Assembly (NCBI GenBank): GCA_030065975.1
Contig: JASJCN010000007.1
Coordinates: forward strand, 1 to 57,443
DNA: 57,443 nucleotides
Source: Myxococcota bacterium
GTDB taxonomy: Bacteria > Myxococcota_A > UBA9160 > UBA6930
Direction: 5' to 3'
In this document: piece after piece, positions 2,059-26,694 of the stretch
How positions within the stretch are numbered: the first letter of the stretch is position 1
Layout: each line of letters starts with the position of its first letter
Position numbers and translations under genes: made by a program
Notes under the pieces: model-generated
What the model was told of the DNA's origin: nothing
The model's input: only the letters and a program-made list of their open reading frames with translations
Databases searched by the model: none

Positions 2059-4103
2059 CAGCCGCCCTCGCCGGGTCCGCTCTCGAAGTGGACGAGGACC
2101 GGGCGACCGGCGACGACGGTACCCGCCGGCGGCTCCTGGCCGACGGCGAAGCCGCGGCCGCGGATCTGCACGGGCAGGTCGAGCTGCCGCGCCCAGCGCC
2201 GCACCTGGACGTCGGTGAGGTCCGTGAGGTCGGGCAGCAGCACACGCTTGCCGAGACGGAAGGCCTCGGGGATCTCCCGCCGCGGCCGGATCGGCGGCGG
2301 CGGCGGTGGCGCCGCCGCCGGGGCGGGCTTGGTCGCCACCACCGCGGGCTGGTATGCGGGCGGCTCCGGAGCGGGAAGGTCGATGCGAGCCAGGGCGGGG
2401 AGCTCTCCGAGCGCCCGGGTGGCGATGCCGCGGCGGGTGAGCGCGCGCGCCGCCACCTGTCCGAAGAGCGGTGCCGCGGTGCTGCCCCCCGACTGGAACT
2501 TGCCCCTGGGCTCGTCGAGCATCACCACCGTCACGATCTCGGGATCCGCGAGCGGCGCCATCCCGACGAACCAGGTGCGGTAGGCGTCGTGGGTGTAGGC
2601 GCCGGTCGCCGGATCGAGCTTCTGGGCCGTCCCCGTCTTGCCGCCGACCTCGATGTCCTCGAGCGCGGCCAGCCGGCCGGTTCCCCGCTCCCCCGACACG
2701 ACGTCGCCGAGCATCGCCCGCAGCTCGCGCGCCACCCGCGCCTTCACCACGCGCTCGGGCCTCGCGGTCGGCACGCTCTTCCATCTGTCCTCGGGCTCGC
2801 GCCGGGCGACGACGAGGCGCGGAGGCTGTCGCAGACCGTCGTTGGCGAGCACGCCGAGCGCGGACGCCAGCTGGACGGGCGTGACGGAGATGCCCTGGCC
2901 GAACGAGATCGTCGCATGGTCGACGGGCTGCCAGCGATCGCTCGAGCGCAGCAGGCCGCGCGATTCGTCGGGGAAGCCCGAGCCGCTGCGCGCGCCGAAG
3001 CCGAAGCGGCGCAGTGCCGCCTCGTGGGCCGAGCGTCCGAGCAGGTAGCCGATCTTGACGGCGCCGATGTTGCTCGAGACGCGCAGGATCCCGCTCGGGT
3101 CGAGCAGGCCGTGGGGCTTGATGTCGGAGAGGGTCTTGCCGGGCACGCGGTAGCGGCCCTGCTCGCAGTCGATGCGGTCGTTCTTCGAGAGCACGCCCTT
3201 CTCGAGGGCCGCGGCGACGACGATGGGCTTGAGCGAAGAGCCCGGCTCGAAGGCGTCGAGGAAGGCCTGGGCGCGCGTCTCCCGGTAGGGCACGCCCCGG
3301 AAGTCGCCCGGATCGAAGGGCGGCCACTCGGCCACGGCGAGGAGGTCGCCGCGCTTCGGATCGAGGACCACCACCACGCCGCCCTTGGCGCCGGTGGCCC
3401 GTACGACCTCGCCCAGCGCCTCCTCGGCGTCGGCCTGCAGCACGCCGTCGATGGAGAGCGCCACGTCGCCGCCGGCCGAGCTTCGCAGGTCGTGCCCCGG
3501 AGCGGCGAGCAGGCGTCCCAGGGCGTCGCGCTCGACGGCGATCTGCTGCGGGGTGCCGCGCAGCCAGTCGTCCCAGCCCTGCTCGACCGAGCGGATCCCC
3601 TCGCCGTCGATGTTCGCGAAGCCGAGCAGGCGGCCGGCGCGCTCTCCCATGGGATAGGCGCGGCGCGGCTCCCGGACGACTCCGACCGCGCCGTGGCCTA
3701 GCTCCTCGATCGCCTGGGCCTGATCCTCGCGGACCCAACGGCGCAGGAACACGAAGGCGCCCTGCCGGGAGAGGCGCTCGCGCAGCTTCGCTTCCGGAAG
3801 CTCGACCAGCGGCGCCAGTGTGGCGGCGAGCCGTGCCGGATCCTCGATGCCGCGCGGGACGGCGTAGATCGACGGGGCCTGGATCGTGACCGCCAGCTCG
3901 TCGCCGTTGCGGTCGGTGATCAGGCCGCGCGCCGGGGCGACGCGGAGCACCGTCACGGTCTGCGCGCGGCCGCGCTCGGCGCCACGCGGATCGAAGACCG
4001 AGAGCTGGGTCGCGCGTGCGGCCAACGCCAGGTAGGCGAGGAGCAGGAGGCCGCCCAGGATGCGCAGGCGGATCACCGAGCGCCGGAGGTCCGATCCCCT
4101 CAT
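2058..4103 (-). CDS. ftsI: Penicillin-binding protein 2/3 type transpeptidase with C-terminal PASTA-like segment
   Basis: MRGSDLRRSVIRLRILGGLLLLAYLALAARATQLSVFDPRG...; SSLKP, SSN and KTGTA motifs; dcw context. Confidence 0.93.
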   Translation of the reverse strand: MRGSDLRRSVIRLRILGGLLLLAYLALAARATQLSVFDPRGAERGRAQTVTVLRVAPARGLITDRNGDELAVTIQAPSIYAVPRGIEDPARLAATLAPLVELPEAKLRERLSRQGAFVFLRRWVREDQAQAIEELGHGAVGVVREPRRAYPMGERAGRLLGFANIDGEGIRSVEQGWDDWLRGTPQQIAVERDALGRLLAAPGHDLRSSAGGDVALSIDGVLQADAEEALGEVVRATGAKGGVVVVLDPKRGDLLAVAEWPPFDPGDFRGVPYRETRAQAFLDAFEPGSSLKPIVVAAALEKGVLSKNDRIDCEQGRYRVPGKTLSDIKPHGLLDPSGILRVSSNIGAVKIGYLLGRSAHEAALRRFGFGARSGSGFPDESRGLLRSSDRWQPVDHATISFGQGISVTPVQLASALGVLANDGLRQPPRLVVARREPEDRWKSVPTARPERVVKARVARELRAMLGDVVSGERGTGRLAALEDIEVGGKTGTAQKLDPATGAYTHDAYRTWFVGMAPLADPEIVTVVMLDEPRGKFQSGGSTAAPLFGQVAARALTRRGIATRALGELPALARIDLPAPEPPAYQPAVVATKPAPAAAPPPPPPIRPRREIPEAFRLGKRVLLPDLTDLTDVQVRRWARQLDLPVQIRGRGFAVGQEPPAGTVVAGRPVLVHFESGPGEGG

Positions 4104-4843
4104 CGTCCGATCTCCACGGCGAGCCGCCGAGCCTCGGGCGCCTCGGCCTCCCACGGGTCTGCTTCCGCGGCCTCGATCGGCGGCAGCGTGATCACGCGCT
4201 CGGCCACACCGAGGCCCATGGCCTCGGCGCGCTCGCGCAGCTCGGCGGGGTCCCGCTGTCCGCGCTCGTCGACCACCCGCTGCCCTTTCGCGTCGCGCAG
4301 CGCGGTCTCGGTGCGCAGGGCCTGACCGAGGGCGTACTGCAGGCGGATCAGGTCGAGGTGCAGGGCGGCCAACAGGAGCAGGCCCGCCAGGGCCCCGCTC
4401 ACCAGCGGCGCGAGCAGCCGCGGCCGCGGACGCCGGCCCTCGTGCCGCGCGGGCTTCGCGAAGTCGCGGCCGACGAGATCGGGCCCGGGTACGCGAGCCC
4501 CGCGGCGCCGGGTGGCGCGTCGGCGCCGCGGCTTGCGGCGGGTCGCGCCGGCCACCGCCTCCTCGGGCTCGGGCTCCTCCCACGGCGGCCTCGTCATCGG
4601 CTCCGCAGGCTCGGGAGCGGGAGCGGCTGCCTTCGCCTGGGGCTCTTCCGGGGCTGCGGGCTCCGGCGCTGCGCGCTCCGGCAGCGCAGGCGCCGGCAAG
4701 TCGTGCTCTGCAGGCTGCGGCACCGCAGGGCGCTCCGCCTCGACGCGCCTCTGCGGCGCGGCGGGGGAGGGCGGGCTCGGGGCCGCGGCCTCGCGCGCCT
4801 CGTCGAAGAGCCGGGCACGCTGACGTCGCCAGGAGCGGCTCAT
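4100..4843 (-). CDS. FtsL-like cell division protein with a long low-complexity Pro/Ala/Glu N-terminal region
   Basis: TM segment LLAPLVSGALAGLLLLAALHLDLIRLQYALG followed by a short coiled-coil-like region; located between rsmH and ftsI. Confidence 0.6.
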   Translation of the reverse strand: MSRSWRRQRARLFDEAREAAAPSPPSPAAPQRRVEAERPAVPQPAEHDLPAPALPERAAPEPAAPEEPQAKAAAPAPEPAEPMTRPPWEEPEPEEAVAGATRRKPRRRRATRRRGARVPGPDLVGRDFAKPARHEGRRPRPRLLAPLVSGALAGLLLLAALHLDLIRLQYALGQALRTETALRDAKGQRVVDERGQRDPAELRERAEAMGLGVAERVITLPPIEAAEADPWEAEAPEARRLAVEIGR

Positions 4844-5892
4844 CGCGGCCTCGCGGGCGTCGCGTGGGCGCGGTCGGCCTCGCCCTCGGCGAGGCGCTCG
4901 GCCACGCGCAGCCGCGCGGAGCGCGCGCGGCGGTTGCGGGCGATCTCCTCCTCGGACGGGCGCACCGGGCGTCGCGTGATGCGCGAGAGCGTCGGGCGGC
5001 GACCGCAGGTGCAGACCGGCTGGCGCGGCGGGCAGTCGCAGCCGCGCTCCTCGTCGCGGAAGAACTGCTTGACCATGCGGTCCTCGAGGGAGTGATAGGA
5101 GAGGACGACCAGGCGCCCGCCCGGTCGCAGGGCATCCCGCGCGGCAGCGAGCCCCTCGGAGAGGGCGCCGAGCTCGTCATTGGTCGCGATGCGCAGAGCC
5201 TGGAACACGAGCGTCGCCGGGTTGTGCTTGCGGCCGCGGCCGACCCGCGACTCCTCGATCACCGCGAGCAGGTCGCCCGCCGTGCGAAGCGGGCGGGTCT
5301 CGCGGGTCTCGACGATGTGGCGGGCCAGGCGCCGCGCGCCGGGGAGCTCCCCGTACTCCTGGAACCAGCGCACGAGCTCGGGCTCGGAGGCGTGGGCGAG
5401 CAGCTCGGCCGCCGTCGCCCCGCGGCTCGCGTCCATGCGCATGTCGAGGGGCACCGCCTCGGCGCTCTCGCCGCTCTGGCCGAACCGGAAGCCGCGCTCG
5501 GGCTCGTCGAGCTGCGGGGACGAGACGCCCAGGTCGAGCAGCACGGCGTCCAGGGGAGGGGAGCCTCGCTCCGCGAGGACGTCGGTCAGGTTCCGGAAGG
5601 ACGCGTGCACCAGCTCCACTCGATCTCCGAAGGGAACCAGCCGCTGGCGCGCCGCCTCGAGGGCGACTTCATCTCTATCGAGACCCACCAGCCGTCCGTC
5701 TGGTGCAGTCCTCTCCAAGATGGCCTCGGCGTGTCCCCCGAAGCCCACCGTCCCGTCCACCACCAGCGTGCCCGCTCCGACTCCCAGGGAGGAGAGCACC
5801 TCCTCCTGGAGAACCGGCTGATGGAGAGTTCGGCGGTTCACATCCGCGCGGGCCTGGCATCCGCTCGAGGCCCGCGATGGTTCGTCTCGCAC
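4840..5892 (-). CDS. rsmH: 16S rRNA (cytosine(1402)-N(4))-methyltransferase
   Basis: TLHQPVLQEEVLSSLGVGAGTLVVDGTVGFGGHAEAIL...; true start may be GTG at 5840. Confidence 0.94.
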   Translation of the reverse strand: MRDEPSRASSGCQARADVNRRTLHQPVLQEEVLSSLGVGAGTLVVDGTVGFGGHAEAILERTAPDGRLVGLDRDEVALEAARQRLVPFGDRVELVHASFRNLTDVLAERGSPPLDAVLLDLGVSSPQLDEPERGFRFGQSGESAEAVPLDMRMDASRGATAAELLAHASEPELVRWFQEYGELPGARRLARHIVETRETRPLRTAGDLLAVIEESRVGRGRKHNPATLVFQALRIATNDELGALSEGLAAARDALRPGGRLVVLSYHSLEDRMVKQFFRDEERGCDCPPRQPVCTCGRRPTLSRITRRPVRPSEEEIARNRRARSARLRVAERLAEGEADRAHATPARPR

Positions 5893-6069
5893 CCTCGGGT
5901 GCGTAAAAAGAAAAAGGAGGCTTGCGGGGAGACCAGGGTGCTCCGGAGCGCTTTTCGGCGGGCTCGGTTCACGCCCCCCAACGATTCCCGTGCGCCGCCC
6001 GATCGGCGCTCCGGAGACACCCTGTTCTCTCGGCCCGGAGCAGAGCTCCGGGTCCCCCCGAAGACCTCC

Positions 6070-6516
6070 CTACAGACCCAGCTCGGCCGCGACGCGGGCC
6101 ACGTCCGGGCCACTCTCCCGGATGTGTGACAGCTCTTCGTCGAAGCCAGCACGGTCCCAGATCTCGATTCGCCGGCCGACGCCGGCAATGGTCACCTCGC
6201 GGCTCAGCGAGGCGTGCTCACGCAGATGCGGCGGAATCAGGACGCGGCCCTGGCCATCGATGGGGCACTCGACGGCCCCGGAGACCAGCATCCGCTGCAC
6301 GGATTGAATCTCCGGCTGCATTTGCGACATGTTTGCGAGACGCTGTTCGATCTCGATCCAGCGATCGTGGGAAAAGACACCGACCGCCTTGCAATCGACC
6401 AGATTGGTGAGGATGGGAGGCAGATCACTCTGACCCTGGAGCTCTCCGCGAAGCGAAGCCGGCAAGCTGACTCGTCCCTTGGCGTCCATGGTGTGGTGAA
6501 ACCGACCTCGTGCCAT
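6070..6516 (-). CDS. mraZ: Transcriptional regulator MraZ
   Basis: MARGRFHHTMDAKGRVSLPASLRGEL...; two AbrB-like MraZ repeats; first gene of the dcw cluster (ORF extends to an alternative GTG at 6528). Confidence 0.95.
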   Translation of the reverse strand: MARGRFHHTMDAKGRVSLPASLRGELQGQSDLPPILTNLVDCKAVGVFSHDRWIEIEQRLANMSQMQPEIQSVQRMLVSGAVECPIDGQGRVLIPPHLREHASLSREVTIAGVGRRIEIWDRAGFDEELSHIRESGPDVARVAAELGL

Positions 6517-6589
6517 CTGGCGGGGCACCTTCCTGCGTGCCGGGGATCCGGCCCCTTCGAGGGATCCGCTCCCTCGTCGTGGGGATGCT

Positions 6590-6614
6590 TACCACTCATC
6601 CCCACCTGACCCCA
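6590..6614 (-). promoter_or_regulatory. MraZ-box array (TGGGG-N5-TGGGG-N5-TGGTA)
   Basis: Minus strand reads TGGGGTCAGGTGGGGATGAGTGGTA; 10-bp periodic TGGGN-type repeats. Confidence 0.75.
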
Positions 6615-6622
6615 CCTGGCTC

Positions 6623-6653
6623 TATATATCCTCCACCTGATGTGCGTGTAAAG
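6623..6653 (-). promoter_or_regulatory. Probable mraZ/dcw promoter
   Basis: Minus strand TTTACA-N18-TATATA, about 100 nt upstream of mraZ and just before the MraZ boxes. Confidence 0.65.
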
Positions 6654-6929
6654 CCCAAACTTCGCGCGCAGCCTCACTTTTTTTCAGGGCCCCAGATGTA
6701 GGGGCCTCTCTCCCCGGGGGCACCCGATCTTGTGGTCAACCCGCTACGGGGCTGGCGGGCCGCAGGCGCGTCGACGGCCCGGGGCGAGGGCACGCACCGC
6801 TGCGACGGCGGGAATGGCGCACCCGACATGGGCGCCCCATCCCACCCGGGGCCTCCTCGAGTGCCTCTCGCCCCACTGGGCCGCGGATCCGGCCTGTCGG
6901 TGGGGCGGCGGCCCATGCCGGAGCGCGGC

Positions 6930-8024
6930 CTAGTCGGCGGCTCCGAGTCCGGGAAAGCGTCCCGCGTGGGCGGCGGCCACCTGGGCGATGGCCTGGCCCA
7001 GCAGCGTGCCCTCCTCGGCGTCGACGGCCGGAGGCAGGGCCGGGGCTTCGGGCGCGAGCGCGGCATCGAGGGTGGCCGAGACCCCCTCGCGCAAGCCGTC
7101 GAGGGAGTATCCGCCCTCGAGGATGAAGGCGAGTCGGCCCCCGGCCTCGTCGTCGGCCAGGGCGCGCACGATGGCGGCCATCTGCCCGAAGCCCTCACCG
7201 CTGACCTGCATCGCCGCGAGCGGATCGTCCGCGTGGGCGTCGTAGCCGGCGGATACGAGGATCACGTCGGGGCGGAAGGCCCGGGTGACGGGCACGAGCA
7301 CGCGCTGGAACAGGCCCACGTACTCGCGATCCCCGCAGCCGGCCGGGAGTGGGAGGTTCACCGTCGCTCCCTCTCCGGCGCCGGTGCCGGTCTCGCCCGC
7401 GTCGCCGGTCCCCGGGTAGTAGGGGAACTGGTGGGTCGAGACGTAGAGCACGTCGCGGTCGTCCTCGAAGCTGTGCTGGGTGCCGTTGCCGTGGTGGACG
7501 TCCCAGTCGAGGATCAGGATGCGCTCGACCCCCTCGGTCGCCCGCAGTGCCTGGGCGGCCAGGGCGACGTTGTTGAGCAGGCAGAAGCCCATGGCGCGTC
7601 CGGCCTCGGCGTGGTGGCCCGGCGGGCGTACCGCCGCGATCCCGGTGTCGAGCTCGCGACGGGCCACGGCCCGGGCGAGGTCGATGGCGGCGCCGGCCGC
7701 CAGGCGCGCCACGCTCTCGCTGCGCGGCGCGAAGTAGGTGTCGGCGTCGAGGCGTACCGGCGCCTGCTCGCGCGCCAGGGACAGGACCGAGAGGTGCTCC
7801 TGGGAGTGGACGCGCAGGATCTCCTCGTCGTCTGCCTCTCGGGCGGCGACCGGGGTGAGCCGGTCGGCGTGGGCGTCGAGCACCTCTCCGACGGCGCGCA
7901 GGCGGTCCGGGCGCTCGGGGTGTCCGTCGGGCCCCTCGTGATCGAGGTAGCGCGGGTCTGCCACGGCGCCCACACTGCGGGGGGCCATCTGCGTCGAGGG
8001 TCGCGAGGGCGGGCTCTGGCTCAT
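6930..8024 (-). CDS. Histone deacetylase / AcuC family protein
   Basis: MSQSPPSRPSTQM...DHEGPDGHPERPDRLRAV...RPPGHHAE...ILDWDVHHGNGTQ...VSAGYDAHADDPLA. Confidence 0.92.
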   Translation of the reverse strand: MSQSPPSRPSTQMAPRSVGAVADPRYLDHEGPDGHPERPDRLRAVGEVLDAHADRLTPVAAREADDEEILRVHSQEHLSVLSLAREQAPVRLDADTYFAPRSESVARLAAGAAIDLARAVARRELDTGIAAVRPPGHHAEAGRAMGFCLLNNVALAAQALRATEGVERILILDWDVHHGNGTQHSFEDDRDVLYVSTHQFPYYPGTGDAGETGTGAGEGATVNLPLPAGCGDREYVGLFQRVLVPVTRAFRPDVILVSAGYDAHADDPLAAMQVSGEGFGQMAAIVRALADDEAGGRLAFILEGGYSLDGLREGVSATLDAALAPEAPALPPAVDAEEGTLLGQAIAQVAAAHAGRFPGLGAAD

Positions 8025-8088
8025 GGGACGAGCGTACCGCGGCCGGCGGCGGCTGACGCACGGGATGCAGGAGCAGGCGAGGAGGGGG

Positions 8089-9054
8089 ATGAGCAGCGCG
8101 ACGACCGTGGCGGTCACCGGTCTCCGGACCGAGCTCGGGAGCCGGCTCGTGGCGCGACTGACCGCGCGCCCGGACGTCGTGGTGGTCGGGATCGACCACC
8201 AGCGGCCGTGGGGTCTCGATGCTGCCGTCCGCTTCCACGGGCTCGACCTGACCCATCCCACCGCCGACGCGGACGTGGCCGAGGTGCTGCGCAAGGAAGA
8301 CGTGACGGTGCTGGTACACCTCGCGTTCCGTCGCGAGCCCACGCCCGACGTCGAATCCGACCACGAGCTCGAGACCCTGGGCAGCCTGCACGTGCTCGAC
8401 GCGTGCACGGCGGCGGGCGTCTCGCGCGTCGTCTTCGCGTCGACGACCATGGCCTACGGGGCGCGCCCCGACAATCCCAACTACCTCACCGAAGACCACC
8501 CGCTGCGCGGCCACCGCGCGGCCCACAACGTGCAGAACCGGGTGGAGGCCGAGGGGCTCGCCAGCGAGTGGGCGCGCCGCAACCCCGACCGCTGCCTGAC
8601 GGTGCTCCGCCACTGCTGGACGCTCGGGCCGGGCAGCCGCCACGCCATGGCGCGCTACTTCGCGCGCCCGGTCGTGCCCATGCTGATGGGCTACGACCCG
8701 CTGATCCAGCTGATCCACGAGGACGACTGCCTGCGCGCCTTCGAGCGGGCCACCCTCGAGTCCATCCCCGGCGTCTACAACCTGGTGGGTCGCGGCGTGC
8801 AGCCGCTCTCCCGGCTGATCCGGCACGCGGGCAAGCGCGTGCTGCCGGTCCCGGCGCCGCTGATGCATCGGCTGCGCTACGCGCCCTCCTTCGCCCAGAC
8901 TGGCGACGAGCCCGACGGCTTCTACGACTTCCTCCGCTACCTGTGGGTGGCCGACGGCAGCCGTGGCTTTGCCGCCTTCGGCGAGCCCGACTACACCACG
9001 AAGGAGGCGTTCACCGCCTTCGTGAGCGAGCGCAAGCTCCGGGAGATGCAATGA
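8089..9054 (+). CDS. NAD-dependent epimerase/dehydratase (extended SDR)
   Basis: MSSATTVAVTGLRTELGSRLVARL...FASTTMAYGARPDNPNYLTEDHPLRG. Confidence 0.85.
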   Translation: MSSATTVAVTGLRTELGSRLVARLTARPDVVVVGIDHQRPWGLDAAVRFHGLDLTHPTADADVAEVLRKEDVTVLVHLAFRREPTPDVESDHELETLGSLHVLDACTAAGVSRVVFASTTMAYGARPDNPNYLTEDHPLRGHRAAHNVQNRVEAEGLASEWARRNPDRCLTVLRHCWTLGPGSRHAMARYFARPVVPMLMGYDPLIQLIHEDDCLRAFERATLESIPGVYNLVGRGVQPLSRLIRHAGKRVLPVPAPLMHRLRYAPSFAQTGDEPDGFYDFLRYLWVADGSRGFAAFGEPDYTTKEAFTAFVSERKLREMQ

Positions 9055-10004
9055 GTGGCCCCCGCTCCCAGGATCTCCTCGACGAGGCCCTGGCGGACCT
9101 CGGCCGCGAGATCCGCGAGCGCTTCGACGGGCGTCCGAGCGGTCCGGGCGAGGGCGAGGAGCCCAAGGCCCCGGACGTCGACGTGTTCGCGATCTTCGGC
9201 GAGCTGCGCGCTCGCACGCGCACCCTCGGCATGCGCGAACGCCGCGGCGAGCTCGACGAGTTCGGGATGGATCCCGAGTGGATCGAGCAGCTGCGCCCCG
9301 CGCTGTCGCTCCTGGCCTCGCGCTGGTTCCGCGTGCGCGCCGAAGGCCTGGCCGAGGTGCCCGACGGTCCCGTGCTCTTCGTGGCCAACCGTTCGGGTCT
9401 GCTCCCCTGGGATGGGCTGCTCGTCGCGCATCAGCTGGCGAGCGTTCGCGGAGAGGCGGCGCGGCCGCGCTTCCTGGTGGCGGACTGGCTGATCACGCTG
9501 CCCTTCGCGCAGCCCACCCTGACGAGGCTCGGCGCCGTGCGCGCCTGTCGTGAGAACGCGGAGCAGCTGCTGCGCAGCGGCCGCTCGGTGGTCGCGTTTC
9601 CCGAGGGCGTGAAGGGGGCGAGCAAGACCTGGGGCGAGCGCTACAAGCTGCAGCGATTCGGCCGGGGCGGCGCCGTCCGCCTGGGGCTCGACCTCGGCGT
9701 GCCGATCGTTCCGGTCTCCGTCGTCGGTGCCGAGGAGACCCAGCCGATCCTCTACAAGGTCGAGTCGCTGGCGCGCGCGTCGGGCCTGCCCTTCCTCCCG
9801 ATCACGCCGACCTTCCCGTGGCTCGGCCCGCTGGGCTTCGTCCCGTTGCCGTCGCGGCTCGACTTCGCCTTCGGCCATCCCCTGGACGTCGAGGACTCCG
9901 ACCCGAGGGACGAGCTGGTCGTCTCACGGCTGAACGAGGAGCTGCGCTCGCGCATCCAGCAGATGGTCGACGCGGGGCTCGCAGCGCGGCGCGAGGCCGG
10001 CTGA
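9051..10004 (+). CDS. Lysophospholipid acyltransferase family protein (PlsC-like)
   Basis: VLFVANRSGLLPWDGLL...VVAFPEGVKGASKTWGERYKLQRFGRGG; overlaps the upstream gene by 4 nt. Confidence 0.82.
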   Translation: MSGPRSQDLLDEALADLGREIRERFDGRPSGPGEGEEPKAPDVDVFAIFGELRARTRTLGMRERRGELDEFGMDPEWIEQLRPALSLLASRWFRVRAEGLAEVPDGPVLFVANRSGLLPWDGLLVAHQLASVRGEAARPRFLVADWLITLPFAQPTLTRLGAVRACRENAEQLLRSGRSVVAFPEGVKGASKTWGERYKLQRFGRGGAVRLGLDLGVPIVPVSVVGAEETQPILYKVESLARASGLPFLPITPTFPWLGPLGFVPLPSRLDFAFGHPLDVEDSDPRDELVVSRLNEELRSRIQQMVDAGLAARREAG

Positions 10005-10011
10005 GCCCGGG

Positions 10012-10542
10012 CTACTCGCTCGGAGTGTCCCCGCCCTCGTCGGGGCTGCGCGACTTCTCGAGGGTCTCGAGCGCGTGGGTCACGCGGTCGAGTCGGTCGT
10101 TCAGGGCCTCGATGTCCGACCGGCGCGGCAGGTCGAGGGCCTTCATCACCCGCTCCATGGTCGACTGCACGATCTGGTCGAGGTCGGGGGGCGTGAACGC
10201 GATCCAGTCGCGATTGCCGTTCGTGTTGCCCATCAGCCGGCGCACGTTGCGCTGGATCTCTTCGATGCCCTCGCGCGGATTGCGGAGGGCTCCGTAGAGG
10301 GCGTCGCCCCGCTGGAGCAGCTCGCTCAGCAGGTTGCCCGGAACGGCGCGGCCGCCGCGCTCGGTGTCGACGAGGATCTGCGAGAGGGTCACGGACGTGA
10401 TGTCCTCGCCGCTCTCGTTGTCGATCACCTGGACTTCCTGGTCGTTCTCCAGCAGCTCGGCGATGCCCTTGAGCGTGATGTACCGGCTGGTGTCCGTGTT
10501 GTAGAGCTTGCGGTTCGCGTACCGCTTGATCAGGACGGGCAT
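10012..10542 (-). CDS. Polyhydroxyalkanoate synthesis regulator (PhaR-type DNA-binding N-terminus)
   Basis: MPVLIKRYANRKLYNTDTSRYITLKGIAELLENDQEVQVIDNESGEDIT is a typical PHA_acc DNA-binding N-terminus. Confidence 0.87.
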   Translation of the reverse strand: MPVLIKRYANRKLYNTDTSRYITLKGIAELLENDQEVQVIDNESGEDITSVTLSQILVDTERGGRAVPGNLLSELLQRGDALYGALRNPREGIEEIQRNVRRLMGNTNGNRDWIAFTPPDLDQIVQSTMERVMKALDLPRRSDIEALNDRLDRVTHALETLEKSRSPDEGGDTPSE

Positions 10543-10695
10543 GGGGCAGCCTCGGGGATGCAGGGCTCGGCTTGGGGCTTCGGCAACGCCCGGAACGCGG
10601 TTCGGCGCTCCGAGGCGGGAGTGGGCGAGGACCCTAGCAGAGCGCACTTGGGTGTCATCCCCGCACCTCCGCCCAGCAGTCCCCGACGGGCCCGC

Positions 10696-11205
10696 TCAGC
10701 CCTGGACGCTCACGCGGCGCAGTCGGGGCTCGCTCTCGGGCGCGCTCGCGTCCTCGGGGTCCGCCCCGCTCGGCCGTGCGCGGCTCGAGTGCTCACCGGT
10801 CGGCTCGCCTGTGTGCCCGGTCTGGGAGCGCGCCGTCGGAGCCAGCTCCCAGAGCAGCTCGCGCACGGCCAGGAACGCCCGCAGCACGTTGCGCGCCTCG
10901 GGCTCGGCGCGGCTGCGTTGCTCCCAGCGCAGGATCTCCGAGTCGAGGGTGTCGAGGAGTGTGTCGAAGAGCGCGCCGTCGGCCTGGGCGCCGCTGCCGA
11001 GCCAGGCCTCGAGCCGTCCCATCCACTGGGCGACCGGAGCCAGGCTGCTGTGGTCGGCGGGCATGCCCGTCGTCGCGAGCGCACCGGCGTCGAGCAGCGC
11101 GTGGACGGCCGCCAGGCTCTCGGCGGCCGCGGCGCGTGCGTGTCGTCGCGCGCGCGCCAGCGCGTCGGCCACGCTCTCGGTCGCTTCCCGGTCGGCGGAG
11201 TCCAT
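10696..11205 (-). CDS. Hypothetical protein downstream of the ArsA-like pair
   Basis: 170-codon ORF starting MDSADREATESVADALARARRHARAAAAESL; same strand and tightly spaced after the ArsA-like ATPase. Confidence 0.6.
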   Translation of the reverse strand: MDSADREATESVADALARARRHARAAAAESLAAVHALLDAGALATTGMPADHSSLAPVAQWMGRLEAWLGSGAQADGALFDTLLDTLDSEILRWEQRSRAEPEARNVLRAFLAVRELLWELAPTARSQTGHTGEPTGEHSSRARPSGADPEDASAPESEPRLRRVSVQG

Positions 11206-11216
11206 GGGGGTCCCCC

Positions 11217-12383
11217 TCAGTCGTTCGGGCGGTCGTTCGGGCAGAGATGACTCGCGACGCGAGCCAGCCCGTCGAGGTCGTGCACGTCCCGCGAGAACTC
11301 GGGAACCACGCACACCTCGCAGCCGGACTGCGCAGCCCGACCGCGAAGCTTCTCCGTCGCCATTGCGTCCTGCTGCACGAGGCCAACGTAGCTGCGCGCC
11401 GCGCGAAGCGCCGCGACCGCCGCCTCGTCGCTCGCATCCCCGAGGGCATCGGCCAGTGCGGCCACGGCGGCGGGCGAGTCGGGATCGGGCAGGGCTTCGG
11501 ACTCGGGCCACACCCGCACGCGGTTGAGCACCAGGGCCCGGACGTCGGCGCCGGACTCCACCAGACGGTCCAGGAAGCCGTCGGCCATGGCGACCGACTC
11601 GACGGTCGGGCCCGCCGCCAGCACGAAGGCCGAGCCGCTGCCGAAGAGGAGCTCGCGGACGGAGAGGGCCCGCTCGCGGAAGCCCTCGGACATGCCCTCG
11701 ATGGACAGCAGGAACTCCGAGAGATCCTCGAGGAAGCCCATTCCCGAGACGCGTTCGATCAGGCGCAGCGCCTGCTGGACGCCGCGCTGGAACAGCCGGA
11801 AGCCGAGGCGCGCACCGGCGAAGGCGGGGTGTACCAGCACCTGGACCACCCGGGATTCGAGGAAGCCGATCAGCCGCTCGGGGGCCTCGAGGAAGTCGAG
11901 CGCGTGCTGCGACGGCGGCGTGTCCAACACGATCAGGTCGAGATCCTCGCGCTCGGAGAGCTCGTAGACCTTCTCCATCGCCGAGTACTCGGCGCTGCCC
12001 GCGAGGGCGTCGGACACGTGCTGGTAGATCGGGTTCGCGAGGATGCGCTCGACCGACGCCTCGTCCGGTGCGAAGCGCTGCACCAGGTCGTCGAAGGTCC
12101 GCTTCATGTCGAGCATCATCGCTTCCATGCGCGCGTCCGGCGCGGCACCGAGTGCGACCAGCCGGTCGGAGGGAAGTGCGTGCGGCTCGTTGCCGAGCTC
12201 GGCGAGCCCGAGGGCGTCGGCCAGGCGTCGCGCCGGGTCGATGGTCACGACGAGGGAGCGTTGCCCCTGGCGTGCGGCCGCCAGCGCGAGGGCGGCGGCG
12301 ACCGTCGTCTTCCCCACGCCGCCGGTTCCGACGCACACGACGATGCGTCGCTCGGCCAGCAATCGGTGGAGGTCGCCGCTCAT
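11217..12383 (-). CDS. ArsA/Get3-family ATPase, subunit without the signature lysine (GTGGVGKTT)
   Basis: RRIVVCVGTGGVGKTTVAAALALAAARQGQRSLVVTIDPARRLADALGL. Confidence 0.88.
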   Translation of the reverse strand: MSGDLHRLLAERRIVVCVGTGGVGKTTVAAALALAAARQGQRSLVVTIDPARRLADALGLAELGNEPHALPSDRLVALGAAPDARMEAMMLDMKRTFDDLVQRFAPDEASVERILANPIYQHVSDALAGSAEYSAMEKVYELSEREDLDLIVLDTPPSQHALDFLEAPERLIGFLESRVVQVLVHPAFAGARLGFRLFQRGVQQALRLIERVSGMGFLEDLSEFLLSIEGMSEGFRERALSVRELLFGSGSAFVLAAGPTVESVAMADGFLDRLVESGADVRALVLNRVRVWPESEALPDPDSPAAVAALADALGDASDEAAVAALRAARSYVGLVQQDAMATEKLRGRAAQSGCEVCVVPEFSRDVHDLDGLARVASHLCPNDRPND

Positions 12384-13420
12384 CGCGTCGGCTCTCCGTC
12401 GACGAGCGCTTCGGCGAGGCGAGCGAGGTCGTCGATCCCGCGGACGCCTCCCGTGAGATAGGGAAGGCACGTGGTGGGGAGGCCGGTCCACTCGCGGACC
12501 CGTCCGAGATACTCCTGTCCCAGCTCGTAGCGCTCGCGCAAGTGTCGCGTGCACTGGGCGAGGGCGCTCGCCGAGGGCAGTCCCGCCACGCCTGTGGGCA
12601 GGTCGAGCGCGGCGAGGCGCGCGTCGAGCGCGCCCAGAGAGGCCGGGAACGGCGCGTCGGGGAGGGCGTTCACGATCACGCGGTCCACCGTGACGCCGAT
12701 CTCGCCGCGCAGCCGCGCCACCAGCTCGGCCGTCTCGCGTGCCGGCAGCTCCTCGGCCAGGGTCACCGGCAGGAGCAGGGTGTCCCGCGGATCCTTGATC
12801 ATCGCCTCGACCCAGCCCGCGTGTCGTTGCAGGGGGCCCGCGCGGACGGCCGAGACGACGACCCGCGGCACGTCGAGGAACACCAGGCCGTGCCCCGTGG
12901 CCGGCGCGTCGACGACGATCAGGTCCCAGGTGGGTCGCCCGTCGTCCTGTGCTTCGCGCAGGTGCCAGACCTTTCCCAGCGTGATCAGCTCGCGCCAGCC
13001 CGGAGCGGCGTCCATCAGCTGGCGGAAGCCGGGATTCGAGAGCACGCGGGTGACGATCCCGGGGATACGCAGCTCGCTGCGCAGGTACTCGGTGAGGGCC
13101 GCGTAGGGCTCGATGCGCCGGGCCCGCAGCCCGGGCAGGAGATCGCGGCCCTCGTAGCCCACGGGCGCCGCGGCGGGCTCGAAGAGCCGGGGGGCGTGCT
13201 CGGCGCGGCCGGTCTCGAGCAGCGCCACCCGCCGCCCGCTGCGGGCCGCCGCCAGGGCCAGCGCCGACGCCACGCTGGTCTTCCCGGTGCCCCCCTTGCC
13301 GGTGACGATCACGAGCCGGCGGGCCAGCAGCGGCCGCAACGCCCCCTCGGACGCCTCGCCCGACATGGGGGGCGCGTCGCTCAAGGGCAGCTCTTGCTCG
13401 GCCGAAACGCTGGGGGGCAC
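12380..13420 (-). CDS. ArsA/Get3-family ATPase, subunit with the signature lysine (GKGGTGKTS)
   Basis: RRLVIVTGKGGTGKTSVASALALAAARSGRRVALLETG; 4-nt overlap with the downstream ATPase. Confidence 0.88.
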   Translation of the reverse strand: MPPSVSAEQELPLSDAPPMSGEASEGALRPLLARRLVIVTGKGGTGKTSVASALALAAARSGRRVALLETGRAEHAPRLFEPAAAPVGYEGRDLLPGLRARRIEPYAALTEYLRSELRIPGIVTRVLSNPGFRQLMDAAPGWRELITLGKVWHLREAQDDGRPTWDLIVVDAPATGHGLVFLDVPRVVVSAVRAGPLQRHAGWVEAMIKDPRDTLLLPVTLAEELPARETAELVARLRGEIGVTVDRVIVNALPDAPFPASLGALDARLAALDLPTGVAGLPSASALAQCTRHLRERYELGQEYLGRVREWTGLPTTCLPYLTGGVRGIDDLARLAEALVDGEPTR

Positions 13421-19445: not shown

Positions 19446-19934
19446 TCAGCCCCGGGCGCGAGAAAAAGTTCGCAGCAGCCGGACGCGGGCCCCGCGGGAG
19501 GGGTCGTCCAGGACGGCCGAGGCGCCCTCCAGAGGCGCCGCGAACCGCTCGGCCACGAGCAGCAACCGGGGCGCGTCGGCGGAGAGCCCGGCCCCGCTCG
19601 CCCGGGCCGCCTGGCGGCGGGTCAGCCACTCGAGCTGGGCGAGGCCCAGGGCGAGCAGGTCGACTCGGGTGCCCTCGTCCTCCGCCACGAGCACCAGCAC
19701 CCCCAGGCCCTCGGGGTCGCGCGCGAGCAGCGTACGCGTCGCCTCGGGGCCGAGCTCGGGAGGCAACCCGTCGAGCTCCTCGCCGAGCGAGAGCGGCGGC
19801 TCGAGGCGGGCGAGGGCGGGGCCGAGCCAGGAGCGGTCGCCCGGCGCGGACTTCCGCGGGACGTCGTCCAGGAAGAAGTGGAGGACGTCACCGAGCTCGC
19901 GAGCCACCGGGGGGCGCTCCTTTCGTGGGCGCAC
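19446..19934 (-). CDS. Hypothetical protein
   Basis: 162 aa ORF MRPRKERPPVARELGDVLHFFLDDVPRKSAPG...; same strand just downstream of the ParA-CBM48 gene. Confidence 0.55.
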   Translation of the reverse strand: MRPRKERPPVARELGDVLHFFLDDVPRKSAPGDRSWLGPALARLEPPLSLGEELDGLPPELGPEATRTLLARDPEGLGVLVLVAEDEGTRVDLLALGLAQLEWLTRRQAARASGAGLSADAPRLLLVAERFAAPLEGASAVLDDPSRGARVRLLRTFSRARG

Positions 19935-19946
19935 CGGCCCGGTCGG

Positions 19947-21047
19947 TCAGCTGACGACGAGGACCGAGTTGCGCCCGCCCACCGGGGCCGGAACGGCGTT
20001 GGGATTCTCGGGATCCTCGCACCACTCGCCGTCCACGACGTAGCGGTACTGGTAGGTGCCCGGCGGCAGGTGCATGACCTTGACCCACACCCGGCCCCGC
20101 TCGTCCTGGCGCAGGCTCGACGCGACGCCCTTGTCCGGAATCCAGCCGTTGAAGTCGCCGGCGATGCGGACGTCGCCGACCTCGTCGCCCCGGAACTCGA
20201 CCGTGACCTCGCGCTCCCGGTCGCCGCCGAGGGACACCGTCTCCACCGGCAGCAGGTCGTCGTCGAAGCCCGGGTCGAGGGCGATCACCTCGACGGCCAG
20301 GGCCGAGTAGTCGACCGCCCCGTTGGCTCGCTTGGAGAACGCGACCAGCGGGCTGCCGCGCCGTGCCGCCTCGCGCAGCTTGATGTTCGAACGGATCACC
20401 GTGTCGAAGCAGAGGTCGCCGAAGAGCGAGCGGATCTCCGCCAGGGTCTCGCGCGCGTAGCGTGTGCGGCCGTCGTAGAGCGTCGGCAGCAGTCGCACCG
20501 TCGGGTCGTGGCCGATGCGCTCGGAGAGGAGGGCTACGGTCTCGAGCAGCTTCTGCACGCCGTGGATGGCGAAGTCGCTGGTCTCGAGGGGAACGATCAC
20601 CTCGCCTGCGGCGCGCAGGGCGTTGAAGGTGAGCACGCCCACGTTCGGCGGGCAGTCGACGAGCGCGTAGTCGTAGCTCTCGGAGACCTCCTCGAGGGCG
20701 CGCCCCAGGCGCTCGGTGCGTCCGTCGGTGCGGTCCGCCGTCAGCCGCTGCTCCAGCGCCGACAGCACGATGCACGAGGGCGCGACGTGCAGCCGCTCGT
20801 TCCAGGGCCGCACGACCGAGGAGAGCGGCGTCCCGGCTCCCTGCTCGGGATCGTTGATGAGCACCTCGTAGAGACTGTCGTCGACGTCTTCGGGCGCGAT
20901 GCCCAGGGCGAGGGTGGCGTGCGCCTGGGGATCCATGTCGACGACCAGCACACGCGCGCCCTCCTGCGCGAGTGCGCCGGCGAGATTGACGGTGGTGGTC
21001 GTCTTCCCGCATCCGCCCTTCTGGTTGACGATGGCGATGGTTCTCAC
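19947..21047 (-). CDS. ParA/MinD-family ATPase with C-terminal CBM48/AMPK-type glycogen-binding domain
   Basis: VRTIAIVNQKGGCGKTTTTVNLAGALAQEGARVLVVDMDPQAHATLALG...VDCPPNVGVLTFNAL; C-terminus VRIAGDFNGWIPDKGV...HLPPGTYQYRYVVDGEWCEDPENPNAVP; GTG start with AAGGAGG SD. Confidence 0.9.
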   Translation of the reverse strand: MRTIAIVNQKGGCGKTTTTVNLAGALAQEGARVLVVDMDPQAHATLALGIAPEDVDDSLYEVLINDPEQGAGTPLSSVVRPWNERLHVAPSCIVLSALEQRLTADRTDGRTERLGRALEEVSESYDYALVDCPPNVGVLTFNALRAAGEVIVPLETSDFAIHGVQKLLETVALLSERIGHDPTVRLLPTLYDGRTRYARETLAEIRSLFGDLCFDTVIRSNIKLREAARRGSPLVAFSKRANGAVDYSALAVEVIALDPGFDDDLLPVETVSLGGDREREVTVEFRGDEVGDVRIAGDFNGWIPDKGVASSLRQDERGRVWVKVMHLPPGTYQYRYVVDGEWCEDPENPNAVPAPVGGRNSVLVVS

Positions 21048-21471: not shown

Positions 21472-22638
21472 ATGTCGTCGGAGAAGCCCCTCGACCGTCC
21501 GCCGGGCTCCAAGCGGCCGATGGTGCGCGACGCCTCCGGAGAGCGCCCCTTCATGCGAGGGATCCTGGTCCACTCGCTGATGGCCCGCGGCGCAAGCTTC
21601 GACGAGGCCTACCGCGCCGCGGGAGAGGTGCGCGAGCGGATCCGTGGCCGCGAGGTCGTCGAGCGCGCCGACCTCGCCCGCTACGTGGAGGAGCTCTTCG
21701 CCAAGGGACGGCTCGAGCGGCCGCTGCCCTTGCCCGAGACCATCGTGGTGGTGGCCGAGAGCGGGAGCGAGGCGCCGTTCTCCAAGGGCGTCCTCTCCCA
21801 GTCGTTCCTCGCGGCGGCCGTCGATCCCAACGATGCCTTCGACGTGGCGCGCGCCATCGAGGCCGACCTCGTGAGTCGTGGCGTGAAGCAGGTGGGCCGC
21901 TCCGAGCTGCGCCGCCTGGCTCACGACCAGCTGGCCCAGCGCCTGGGTGAGCGCCCGAGCGAGCGCTACCGGGTGTGGCGCCGCTTCGTCGCCTCGGAGC
22001 GTCCGCTGGTGCTGCTCCTCGGCGGGGCGCCCGGCGTCGGCAAGTCGACCCTGGCGCAGGAGGTCGCCCACCGCCTCGGCATCTCCCGGGCATCGTCCAC
22101 CGATGCGATCCGCCAGGTGATGCGCCTGATGCTCTCGCCCGAGCTGGTTCCCGCGATCCACGCGTCGTCCTACGACGCGCATCAGCACCTGACCCCGCCG
22201 GCCGACGACGAGGAGGCGGTGGTCGCGGGCTTCCGCGCCCAGGCCGGCACCGTCTGCGTCGGGGCACGGGCCATGGTGGAGCGCGCGGTGCAGGAGAACA
22301 CCTCGGTGATCCTGGACGGGGTCTCGGTGGTGCCGGGCCTGCTCGACCTCGAGTCCCTCGGTGGGGATCCCCACGTGATCTTCCTGATGCTCGCCAACCT
22401 GGATGCGGAGACCTTCCGCAACCGCTTCGAGACGCGAGCCCGCAGCGCGAGCCAACGCGAGCCCCATCGCTACGTCTCGAACCTCGACGCCATCCTGCAG
22501 ATCCAGGATCACCTGCTCGAGCTCGCCGAGCACCACGAGGTCCCGATCGTCGAGAACCGGAGCTTCGACTCCTCGGTGGCGTCGATCCTGCGCCACGTGA
22601 GCGAGTCGCTGCGACAGACGGGGGCGCCCACGGCGTGA
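21472..22638 (+). CDS. ATP-cone domain / 2-phosphoglycerate kinase-like protein
   Basis: MVRDASGERPFMRGILVHSLMARGASFDEAYRAAGEVRERI (ATP-cone-like); LLLGGAPGVGKSTLAQEVAHRLGISRASSTDAIRQVMR (kinase P-loop). Confidence 0.82.
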   Translation: MSSEKPLDRPPGSKRPMVRDASGERPFMRGILVHSLMARGASFDEAYRAAGEVRERIRGREVVERADLARYVEELFAKGRLERPLPLPETIVVVAESGSEAPFSKGVLSQSFLAAAVDPNDAFDVARAIEADLVSRGVKQVGRSELRRLAHDQLAQRLGERPSERYRVWRRFVASERPLVLLLGGAPGVGKSTLAQEVAHRLGISRASSTDAIRQVMRLMLSPELVPAIHASSYDAHQHLTPPADDEEAVVAGFRAQAGTVCVGARAMVERAVQENTSVILDGVSVVPGLLDLESLGGDPHVIFLMLANLDAETFRNRFETRARSASQREPHRYVSNLDAILQIQDHLLELAEHHEVPIVENRSFDSSVASILRHVSESLRQTGAPTA

Positions 22639-23558: not shown

Positions 23559-25034
23559 ATGGCGGAGTCGAGAGCGCGGACCCTGGGCGAGCTGCGGGCA
23601 TCCGGGGTGGGCCCCCGGACCCTGCGCGAGGAGATCCGAGCGAACCTGCTCGCGAAGCTCCGCGCCGGCGAGAATCTCTTCCCCGGCATCCTCGGCTACG
23701 ACGACAGCGTGATTCCGGCCGTCGAGAACGCGCTGCTCTGCGGCCACGACCTGATCTTCCTGGGCGAGCGGGGCCAGGCGAAGTCGCGGATGATCCGCGC
23801 GCTGGTGCAGCTGCTCGACGAGTGGATCCCCGAGGTCGCGGGCAGCGAGATCCATGACGATCCCTTCCACCCCGTCTCCGCCCACGGGCGTGCGGTGGTG
23901 GCCGAGCGCGGCGACGACACGCCGATCGAGTGGGTGCACCGCGACGACCGCTACGTGGAGAAGCTCGCGACGCCCGACGTCTCGATCGCGGATCTGATCG
24001 GCGACATCGATCCCGTGAAGGTGGCCGAGGGCCGCTCCCTCGCCGACGAGGGCACCATCCACTTCGGGCTCCTGCCGCGCACCAACCGCGGCATCTTCTG
24101 CATCAACGAGCTGCCGGACCTGACTGAGAAGGTGCAGGTCGGCCTCTTCAACGTGATGCAGGAGCGCGACGTCCAGGTGAAGGGCTACCGCGTGCGACTG
24201 CCCCTCGACGTGGTCGTCGTGGCGAGCGCGAACCCCGAGGACTACACGAGCCGCGGCCGCATCATCACGCCGCTCAAGGACCGCTACGCGGCCCAGGTGC
24301 GCACGCACTACCCCCTGACGCGGGAGCTCGAGCTGGCCGTCCTGAAGCAGGAGGCGCGCGTCCCCGGGGTGCCCGGAGTCGAGATCGTGGTGCCTCCCTT
24401 CATGGAGGAGATTACGGCCGAGCTCACGCTCCAGGCGCGCAGCAGCCCGGACGTGAACCAGGCCTCCGGCGTCTCGGTGCGGATGACCCTCGCCAACTAC
24501 GAGACCCTGCTGGCCAACGCGGTGCGCCGCGCCCTGCGACGCGGGGAGAAGCTCGCGGTACCGCGGATCAGCGACCTCGAGGCCCTGGTGCAGTCGAGCG
24601 CGGGCAAGCTCGAGCTCGAGTACGCGGGCGAGGACCGCACCGAGGAGGACGTCGTCCGCAACCTCCTGAAGCGCACGACGCGGCTGGTCTTCGACGCCCA
24701 GGCTCCGGTCGAGGCGCTCGGGCCGGTGGTGGAGTCCTTCGATCAGGGATGGAACGTCGAGGTCGGCGCCGACATGGCGTCGTCGGACTACCTGGAAGGG
24801 GTCGACGAGATCCGCGGGCTCCGCGAGGTCGCCGAGCATCTCGGCGGCGGGCCCGAGCCCGAGCGCATGGCCTCCGCCATCGAGTTCGTACTCGAGGGGC
24901 TGCACCTGCAGAACCGTCTGAACAAGAGCCAGCCGAACCAGACCCATCCGGACCAGTCCGGAGGGGAGGGCGCCGTCCGCTACGGGCGCTCCTCGGCCGG
25001 CGGATCCCAGGGCGATCCCACGGGCGGGGCCTGA
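23559..25034 (+). CDS. MoxR/Mg-chelatase-type AAA+ ATPase
   Basis: HDLIFLGERGQAKSRMIRAL...GIFCINELPDLTEKVQVGLFNVMQERDVQVKGYRVRLPLDVVVVASANPEDYTSRGRI. Confidence 0.9.
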   Translation: MAESRARTLGELRASGVGPRTLREEIRANLLAKLRAGENLFPGILGYDDSVIPAVENALLCGHDLIFLGERGQAKSRMIRALVQLLDEWIPEVAGSEIHDDPFHPVSAHGRAVVAERGDDTPIEWVHRDDRYVEKLATPDVSIADLIGDIDPVKVAEGRSLADEGTIHFGLLPRTNRGIFCINELPDLTEKVQVGLFNVMQERDVQVKGYRVRLPLDVVVVASANPEDYTSRGRIITPLKDRYAAQVRTHYPLTRELELAVLKQEARVPGVPGVEIVVPPFMEEITAELTLQARSSPDVNQASGVSVRMTLANYETLLANAVRRALRRGEKLAVPRISDLEALVQSSAGKLELEYAGEDRTEEDVVRNLLKRTTRLVFDAQAPVEALGPVVESFDQGWNVEVGADMASSDYLEGVDEIRGLREVAEHLGGGPEPERMASAIEFVLEGLHLQNRLNKSQPNQTHPDQSGGEGAVRYGRSSAGGSQGDPTGGA

Positions 25035-25038
25035 TCGG

Positions 25039-26694
25039 GTGAGCGCCGCCCGCCGCCATCGCTACAGCCGCTGGGACGGCTCCCTCGAGGAGTTCTCCCT
25101 CGACGCGAAGCGCGCCCTCGACGCCCTCTCCGAGCTCCTGATGGAGGGGCTCGAGGTCGACGAGGCGCTCGACTGGATGCGTCGCTTCGGCTTCCAGATG
25201 GCGGGCATGGACTTCCGGGTGATGGGCGCCGAGGAGCTCGCGAACGAGCTGCGGGAGCAGGTCCGTGCGCTCGAGCAGCAGTACAACCTCGACCACTCCA
25301 CCGAGGAGCTCGCCCGCCGGCTCGACGAGATCCTCGATCGCGAGGAGCAGGCCCTCCGCTCCGCGCACGGCCACGAGTCCCAGCGCATGAACGAGTTCCT
25401 GTCCCGGCGCCACGGCGGGACGGAGCCCAACGAGAGCCTCTCCCAGGCCATCGAGCGCCTGCGCGATCACCGCTTCGAGGACGAGGAGGCGGGCTCGGAC
25501 TTCCAGGAGCTGCTGGCCGAGCTCGACCGTCTGAAGGCCCTCGAGGAGTTCCAGCAGCAGCGCGGCCAGCGCTTCCGCGGGCCCGAGTCGGCCGACTACG
25601 AGCAGGCCCAGCAGATCCGCGAGCAGATCGAGCAGCTGGAGCAGCTGGCCCAGCAGCTCGCGGACGGCGACTTCCAGGGCGCGAACATGACGCCGGAGCA
25701 GCTGCGCGAGCTGCTCTCCGAGGACGGCGTGCGCTCGCTGATCCTGCTGCGCGACATGGAGCGCAACCTCGAGGAGGCCGGCTTCCTGGCGCCCGGCGAG
25801 GAGGGCCCCGAGCTCACCCCCCGCGCGATCCGCCGGATCGGCGCCCAGGCCCTGGCCTCGGTGTACGGCGCGCTCCGCAAGGGCCGGCCCGGCGCCCACG
25901 ACACGGTCCACTACGGCGTCGCCACCCGTAGGCCCGACGAGACCAAGCCCTTCGAGTTCGGCGGCGACCTCGACCTGCACGTCGTGCGGACGCTCATGAA
26001 CGGCGTGCGCCGTGCCGCGGCCGCGCGGCCCGGCGAGCCCCTCGAGCCGCCGATCCGCCTCGACGTCTCCGACCTCGAGGTCTACGAGTGCGACTTCAGC
26101 ACCCAGACCACCACCGTGCTGCTGCTCGACATGAGCTGGAGCATGTCGTGGGCGGGGCGCTTCCCGGCGGCCAAGCGCGTGGCCATGGCCCTCGATCACC
26201 TGATCCGCACGCGCTACCCGCGCGACGACTTCTTCGTGGTCGGCTTCTCGACCCGCGCCCGAGAGCTCCCGATCCGCGACCTTCCCCTCGCGCGCTGGGA
26301 CATGGGCGACCCGTTCACGAATCTCCAGGAGGGGCTGATGGTCGCCGAGCGGCTGATCGATCGGCACCCGAGTCCGAGCCCGCAGATCCTCGTGATCACC
26401 GACGGGCAGCCCACGGCCTACTACGCCGACCGCGAGCTGCACGTGGAGTGGCCCATGGGCTTCGGCGGCGTCTCGCCCCACGCCGTCGCCGAGACGCTGA
26501 AGACCGTGCGGCGGGTGACGCGCCGGGGCATCACCATCAACACGTTCATGCTCGACGACGCGCCCGAGCTGGTGGGCTTCGTCGAGCGCATGACCGAGAT
26601 CAATCGCGGCCGCGCGTTCTTCACGTCGCCGACGCAGCTCGGCTCGTTCCTGATGGTCGACTACCTGAGCCGGCGTCGGACTCAGCATCGATGA
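25039..26694 (+). CDS. VWA domain protein (MoxR partner)
   Basis: TTTVLLLDMSWSMSWAGRFPAAKRVAMALDHLI...ILVITDGQPTAYY (MIDAS-type DxSxS). Confidence 0.9.
   Translation: MSAARRHRYSRWDGSLEEFSLDAKRALDALSELLMEGLEVDEALDWMRRFGFQMAGMDFRVMGAEELANELREQVRALEQQYNLDHSTEELARRLDEILDREEQALRSAHGHESQRMNEFLSRRHGGTEPNESLSQAIERLRDHRFEDEEAGSDFQELLAELDRLKALEEFQQQRGQRFRGPESADYEQAQQIREQIEQLEQLAQQLADGDFQGANMTPEQLRELLSEDGVRSLILLRDMERNLEEAGFLAPGEEGPELTPRAIRRIGAQALASVYGALRKGRPGAHDTVHYGVATRRPDETKPFEFGGDLDLHVVRTLMNGVRRAAAARPGEPLEPPIRLDVSDLEVYECDFSTQTTTVLLLDMSWSMSWAGRFPAAKRVAMALDHLIRTRYPRDDFFVVGFSTRARELPIRDLPLARWDMGDPFTNLQEGLMVAERLIDRHPSPSPQILVITDGQPTAYYADRELHVEWPMGFGGVSPHAVAETLKTVRRVTRRGITINTFMLDDAPELVGFVERMTEINRGRAFFTSPTQLGSFLMVDYLSRRRTQHR

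Follow-up and report, generated by a model that had tools for sequence, protein, structure and literature searches.

ATPases of the ParA/MinD family position DNA, microcompartments, flagella, chemotaxis arrays and the divisome, and in typical ParA systems the cargo is bound by a partner protein rather than by ParA. ParA systems with unusual partners are already known. The ParB protein of Myxococcus xanthus has a motif of hydrophobic or aliphatic residues with one central positive charge that suffices to stimulate ParA; it binds at the interface of the ParA dimer and, in concert with DNA, stimulates hydrolysis of ATP (PMC12462528). Partners in systems with cargo other than DNA have a charged, disordered N-terminus that is thought to activate ParA in a similar way, and in McdAB, PpfA/ParC and other such ParA/MinD systems a dedicated partner with a short, basic N-terminus is encoded next to the ATPase (PMC10241942). 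In the glycogen-binding domain of AMPK, mutation of W100, K126, W133, L146 or T148 markedly lowers glycogen binding (PMC2642990).

The locus described here lies in a window of 57,443 nucleotides, the whole stretch of DNA that was analysed, from a Myxococcota bacterium. It encodes a ParA-type ATPase fused to an AMPK-type carbohydrate-binding module (ParA-CBM). With ParA/Soj of the ParABS systems, which provide the closest PDB matches, it shares the Walker B and deviant Walker A motifs and basic residues on the presumed DNA face, and its partner carries a peptide resembling the N-terminus of ParB. It differs in belonging to a separate clade, in its C-terminal CBM and in having no adjoining ParB with an HTH, the genome's own parAB being located elsewhere. 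The adjacent partner with a short, basic N-terminus recalls McdAB and PpfA/ParC, but here the partner is predicted to have a P-loop-less FlhG/MinD fold accompanied by a PD-(D/E)XK-like protein, and the CBM is on the ATPase. The conserved small operon seemingly has not been described before. No paper joining ParA with CBM48, AMPK1_CBM or glycogen positioning was found, with preprints and most subscription papers outside the scope of the search, and the literature searched held no polysaccharide-linked member of the ParA/MinD family. Nor did these papers describe a system in which a ParA bearing an AMPK-type CBM is joined by a P-loop-less FlhG-like partner and a third, nuclease-like protein.

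The ParA-CBM protein

ParA-CBM is encoded on the minus strand (19947..21047, GTG start at 21047) as 366 amino acids that begin MRTIAIVNQKGGCGKTTT and end GGRNSVLVVS*. The first-pass annotation had described one continuous reading frame joining ParA to a C-terminal module of the CBM48/AMPK-beta type. Both points hold, as the single frame is uninterrupted by any frameshift and AMPK1_CBM (PF16561) matches residues 290-352 with E=1.5e-10 and 41.5 bits against a curated Pfam cut-off of 26.8. The ATPase domain (residues 1-256; 20280..21047, minus strand) is defined by invariant motifs and by Pfam AAA_31, which matches residues 1-178 (E=1.1e-48, 165.9 bits, cut-off 27). It is followed by a variable linker (residues 257-283; 20199..20279, minus strand), recognised by its identity to relatives, and by the AMPK1_CBM domain (residues 284-366; 19950..20198, minus strand). 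In phmmer searches of the PDB the ParA part matched the ParA/Soj structures 8ray (5e-46) and 1wcv (1.3e-39), and the CBM part matched AMPK beta glycogen-binding domains (4y0g), with 1.1e-7 for the CBM alone. ParA-CBM is the only PF16561 protein in the window's assembly.

A full deviant Walker A and later ParA motifs had also been noticed in the first reading, and motifs of the active type are indeed kept across the family. The Walker A sequence KGGCGKTTT (residues 10-18; 20994..21020, minus strand) with its signature lysine, Walker B and the AAA_31 profile are all present in ParA-CBM. Among 67 family members, K10-T17 of Walker A, D37, D39 and D131 are invariant, and many other ParA residues are invariant or nearly so. 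R194 is kept in 65/67, and positions 223 (K/R) and 225 (R/K) are basic in nearly all; these three presumably correspond to the DNA-binding face of Soj.

For the CBM, 64 sequences were aligned to rat AMPK beta1, which places W302, R333, W342 and N360 of ParA-CBM at the positions of W100, K126, W133 and N150. The equivalents of the glucan-stacking residues W100 and W133 are tryptophan in 64/64, position 126 holds a basic residue (K or R) in all 64, and the N150 equivalent is asparagine in 60; tryptophan and asparagine also belong to the signature of the CBM family. Of the carbohydrate-contacting residues, whose lack would have spoken against the first reading of the module, W100, the basic residue at 126, W133 and N150 are kept, and the positions of L146 and T148 vary among the 64 CBMs. 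The likeness to the AMPK beta domain consists in the profile match and these four residues, and the differences are the variable L146 and T148 positions, the fusion to ParA and the lack of a kinase. Identity to relatives within the order is 12-46% in the linker and 61-76% in the flanking domains. The CBM is about as conserved as ParA in genomes with and without GlgB alike, with drift in the linker only.

Distribution and phylogeny

Comparison of 61 genomes from the window's order or closer showed full-length ParA-CBM in about 52 (55-72% identity). It is clearly absent from six; in three others, contig ends or incomplete matches leave its presence ambiguous. Carriers within the phylum all belong to one class. 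A scan of named genomes recovered the protein in Myxococcota MAGs and also, with identities of 37-48%, in MAGs labelled Nitrospirae/Nitrospirota, Acidobacteria, Omnitrophota, Latescibacterota, Gammaproteobacteria and other Deltaproteobacteria, altogether in at least six lineages besides the window's own. The linker is longer in Phycisphaerae and is a long acidic stretch in Nitrospirota (L080/L081), and one relative (G047) has two full-length copies, G047:C39 and G047:C75.

A frameshift or two-gene artefact is ruled out by the full-length fusion in more than 50 relatives. The survey of the architecture that was proposed with the first reading shows, by the full-length relatives and the similar proteins in other phyla, that the fusion is neither due to chance nor to assembly. 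ParA-CBM is confirmed as a genuine protein in which a variable linker joins a complete ParA ATPase to an AMPK1_CBM.

In a maximum-likelihood tree based on the ParA domain, all ParA-CBMs are found outside a supported clade (99/98) of ordinary ParA/Soj, and the Soj of the window's own genome is inside that clade. Three label changes are required on this tree, including a nested loss of the CBM in a Phycisphaerae locus (L094, 10001-12119) that has a ParA of the ParA-CBM clade and has kept a neighbour like gene 2. A single origin of ParA-CBM is not proven because several deep branches are long or unresolved. The clade and its co-inherited partner with a ParB-like N-terminal peptide support the earlier placement in the ParA positioning family. 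The possibility that ParA-CBM is the chromosomal ParA was rejected, as the genome has its own Soj and ParB on contig C262. That ordinary parA-parB locus (L106, G000:C262) is adjoined by a bactofilin-like ORF, and the N-terminus of its ParB is MSARRSALGRGLDALLPG.

Partner genes and neighbourhood

The gene order conserved through the window's order is SppA, VWA, MoxR, M48, 2-phosphoglycerate kinase, divergent ParA-CBM, gene 2 and gene 3, with an ECF sigma factor, a hydrolase-like ORF, a DsbA-like protein and a phosphohexomutase 3' of gene 3. Gene 2 (about 250-300 amino acids) and then gene 3 (about 190 amino acids) also follow ParA-CBM in deltaproteobacterial loci (L064-L066, L068-L070, L074, L083 and L109-L115, gene 3 not being called in L112), in a gammaproteobacterium (L067) and in Nitrospirota (L081). 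The neighbour in Phycisphaerae is longer and has an N-terminus like that of gene 2, and three gammaproteobacterial loci (L071, L072 and L087) have ParA-CBM without an adjacent gene 2. Nearly all carriers have a strong match to gene 2 directly downstream, and none of the six non-carriers has a strong match. Beyond the operon itself no neighbour is common to all lineages, and no glucan partner gene common to all carriers was found.

The divergent neighbour in the window (21472-22638, plus strand) is similar to archaeal 2-phosphoglycerate kinase (its match to NF003259, E 8.9e-94, scores 314 bits, with the cut-off at 343) and is kept beside ParA-CBM through the window's order. The archaeal type of this kinase is unusual in bacteria. 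At 23559-26694 (plus strand) a MoxR-like AAA protein with an unusual P-loop (GERGQAKS) is followed by a VWA protein, and these are conserved with the locus.

The first-pass annotation had seen no adjacent ParB. This is correct for a ParB with an HTH, and no neighbour ORF matched ParB in Pfam or NCBIfam, but an adjacent partner gene had been overlooked. The partner ORFs gave nothing above cut-off in Pfam/NCBIfam, after which profile searches of the PDB and fold searches were applied. Searches with single gene 2 sequences gave no convincing match. The gene 2 profile matched FlhG (4rz2, 4.6e-21) and also FleN, and an AF2 model (mean pLDDT 85) matched FlhG at 8e-14 in Foldseek. No GK[ST] motif occurs in 22 gene 2 sequences. 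Gene 2 is accordingly predicted to have an FlhG/MinD fold without the P-loop, which has been lost; the fold is shared with FlhG/FleN, and the missing P-loop and another N-terminus set it apart.

The N-terminus of gene 2 is conserved across lineages (MARELGDVLHYFLD, MPRDLGDVLHYFLP, MEEKSRLGRGLKDVSRFYLSD, PKLGRGLNDVSRFFLT, ASRERLEKISHHFLT), and only two columns of the alignment are invariant, R3 being one of them. The peptide is short, basic and hydrophobic, with an LGRGL-like or R-x-L-x-D-V pattern, and is disordered in the AF2 model (pLDDT < 50), where its placement has low confidence. Its resemblance to the ParA-activating motif of ParB, for which the ParB of the window's own genome with its start MSARRSALGRGLDALLPG serves as a comparison, suggests that it may be the activator of ParA-CBM.

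In the window's genus the body of gene 2 is lost and its N-terminal peptide is retained on gene 3. The joined partner ORF (19446..19907, minus strand) has 153 amino acids from GTG 19907, which lies 39 bp beyond the stop of ParA-CBM, or 162 if the earlier start GTG 19934, 12 bp beyond that stop, is used. Its conserved peptide MARELGDVLHFFLDD (19863..19907, minus strand), placed by the gene 2 alignment and proposed to activate ParA, stands before a shortened gene 3 body (19446..19850, minus strand). A relative in the genus (L022) has the same joined form, with the peptide MARDLGDVLHYFLDD running into the gene 3 body, and the rest of the window's assembly (85.5% complete) yielded no full gene 2. 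Retention of the peptide while the P-loop-less domain was lost is read here as a sign that it is through the peptide that the partner works on ParA-CBM.

Gene 3 sequences gave no convincing match in the PDB. The AF2 model (pLDDT 89) matched the endonuclease NucS/EndoMS at 5.8e-5 in Foldseek, a distant match considering the low TM-scores (0.36-0.42), and points to a PD-(D/E)XK-like fold in the relatives. Unlike NucS/EndoMS, gene 3 has no ExK motif wherever the conserved Asp could be located, which was in about three quarters of 32 sequences. To judge from these motifs, gene 3 is probably not an active nuclease.

Glucan metabolism and possible roles

It was proposed in the first reading that the protein might partition glycogen. 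ParA-CBM would then coat or tether glycogen granules and distribute them over the nucleoid, with the result that each daughter cell receives some. The conserved glucan-contact residues agree with this, and so does the window's own genome, where profiles located GlgB and phosphorylase in a cluster on contig C12 that also has GlgX-like, MalQ-like and glycosyltransferase genes as read from translations. In the deltaproteobacterial locus L074 the region immediately upstream of the operon (855-9599) encodes, according to translations, a debranching-type enzyme, a glycosyltransferase and a GT3 synthase/phosphorylase fusion, the phosphorylase part of which is supported by tblastn to the GlgP of the window's genome. 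However, this is the only one of about 70 neighbourhoods examined with glycogen genes beside the operon. GT5 accompanies ParA-CBM in 26/29 carrier genomes outside the window's order, but this co-occurrence is uninformative because GT5 is present in 39/42 genomes of one class tested.

Profiles for glucan enzymes (GT5, GlgB, phosphorylase and GH57, and also any GH13) were run over the 61 relatives, and the outcome does not support glycogen partitioning. Within the order ParA-CBM occurs independently of glycogen genes: GlgB was found in 21/52 carriers and 2/6 non-carriers (Fisher P=1.0), leaving 31/52 carriers without it, and phosphorylase, GT5 and any GH13 gave P of 0.66 or more. Seventeen carriers, including G032 and G024 (both 97% complete), G037 (95%), G016 and G030 (94%), have kept ParA-CBM with no match to GH13, GH57, GT5 or phosphorylase, and their CBM is as conserved as elsewhere. 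Two non-carriers (G021 and G028) have GlgB. Few non-carriers and incomplete MAGs make the test weak for small effects, yet a strict dependence of ParA-CBM on these known glycogen enzymes is ruled out. Glycogen might be the cargo in genomes that make it, but it cannot be the general answer for all carriers, and glycogen partitioning is an unlikely role for the module.

The CBM might instead read alpha-glucan or maltodextrin and gate a ParA/FleN-like switch that acts on transcription or an enzyme complex, with no cargo being moved. In AMPK, too, the glycogen-binding domain acts as an allosteric sensor (PMC2642990). Gene 2 belongs to the FlhG/FleN type, FleN being a transcriptional antiactivator, and an ECF sigma gene is nearby through most of the order, as is a MerR-like gene upstream in Nitrospirota. 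These neighbouring regulators vary among lineages, however, the mismatch with glycogen genes applies as well, and ParA-CBM has, in the manner of spatial systems, retained basic residues at the presumed DNA face and a partner that resembles an activator. Such a sensor is considered rather unlikely. Retention of the CBM in genomes without detectable alpha-glucan enzymes would be accounted for if the domain had lost its sugar binding and become a structural or protein-binding part of a module that positions a protein complex, and the unconserved L146 and T148 positions and the loss of the CBM in L094, where the gene 2-like neighbour is kept, are in line with this. On the other hand, the stacking tryptophans, the basic residue at 126 and N150 hardly vary from lineage to lineage. 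Such constancy is difficult to account for unless a ligand is bound, even though tryptophan and asparagine are signature residues of the family, and a purely structural CBM is considered quite improbable.

The best explanation, to which we give about an even chance, is that ParA-CBM is the ATPase of a switch or positioning module of the non-DNA ParA type (ParA/MinD family) whose CBM binds a glucan-like ligand. Dimers of ATP-bound ParA-CBM would sit on the nucleoid, and the peptide of gene 2, carried by gene 3 in the window's genus, would insert at the dimer interface and cause hydrolysis. The CBM would tether or sense an alpha-glucan-like ligand and thereby couple ligand occupancy to the ATPase cycle. 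A CBM on ParA itself is unusual, since the partner binds the cargo in typical systems, and this counts against the explanation. A more specific proposal, tentative and somewhat doubtful, is that at least seven bacterial lineages have an undescribed ParA system. Its ATPase would bind alpha-glucan through the fused AMPK-type CBM and be driven by the P-loop-less MinD-like partner through a ParB-like peptide, and the ParA cycle would serve to position, segregate or sense a storage or signalling glucan.

An ancient ParA clade that combines a binding module of the glucan type with a partner inherited alongside it is a directly testable case. If the CBM binds glucan, spatial organisation by ParA would be linked to carbohydrate reserves. 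The partner displays a ParB-like peptide on, and swapped between, unrelated bodies, namely a P-loop-less ATPase fold and, in the window's genus, a nuclease-like fold.

Elsewhere in the window, translations indicate an ORF like the PHA regulator PhaR together with two tandem ArsA/GET3-like ATPases (10012-13366, minus strand) and an ORF like the IS200/IS605 transposase TnpA (50121-50531, plus strand).
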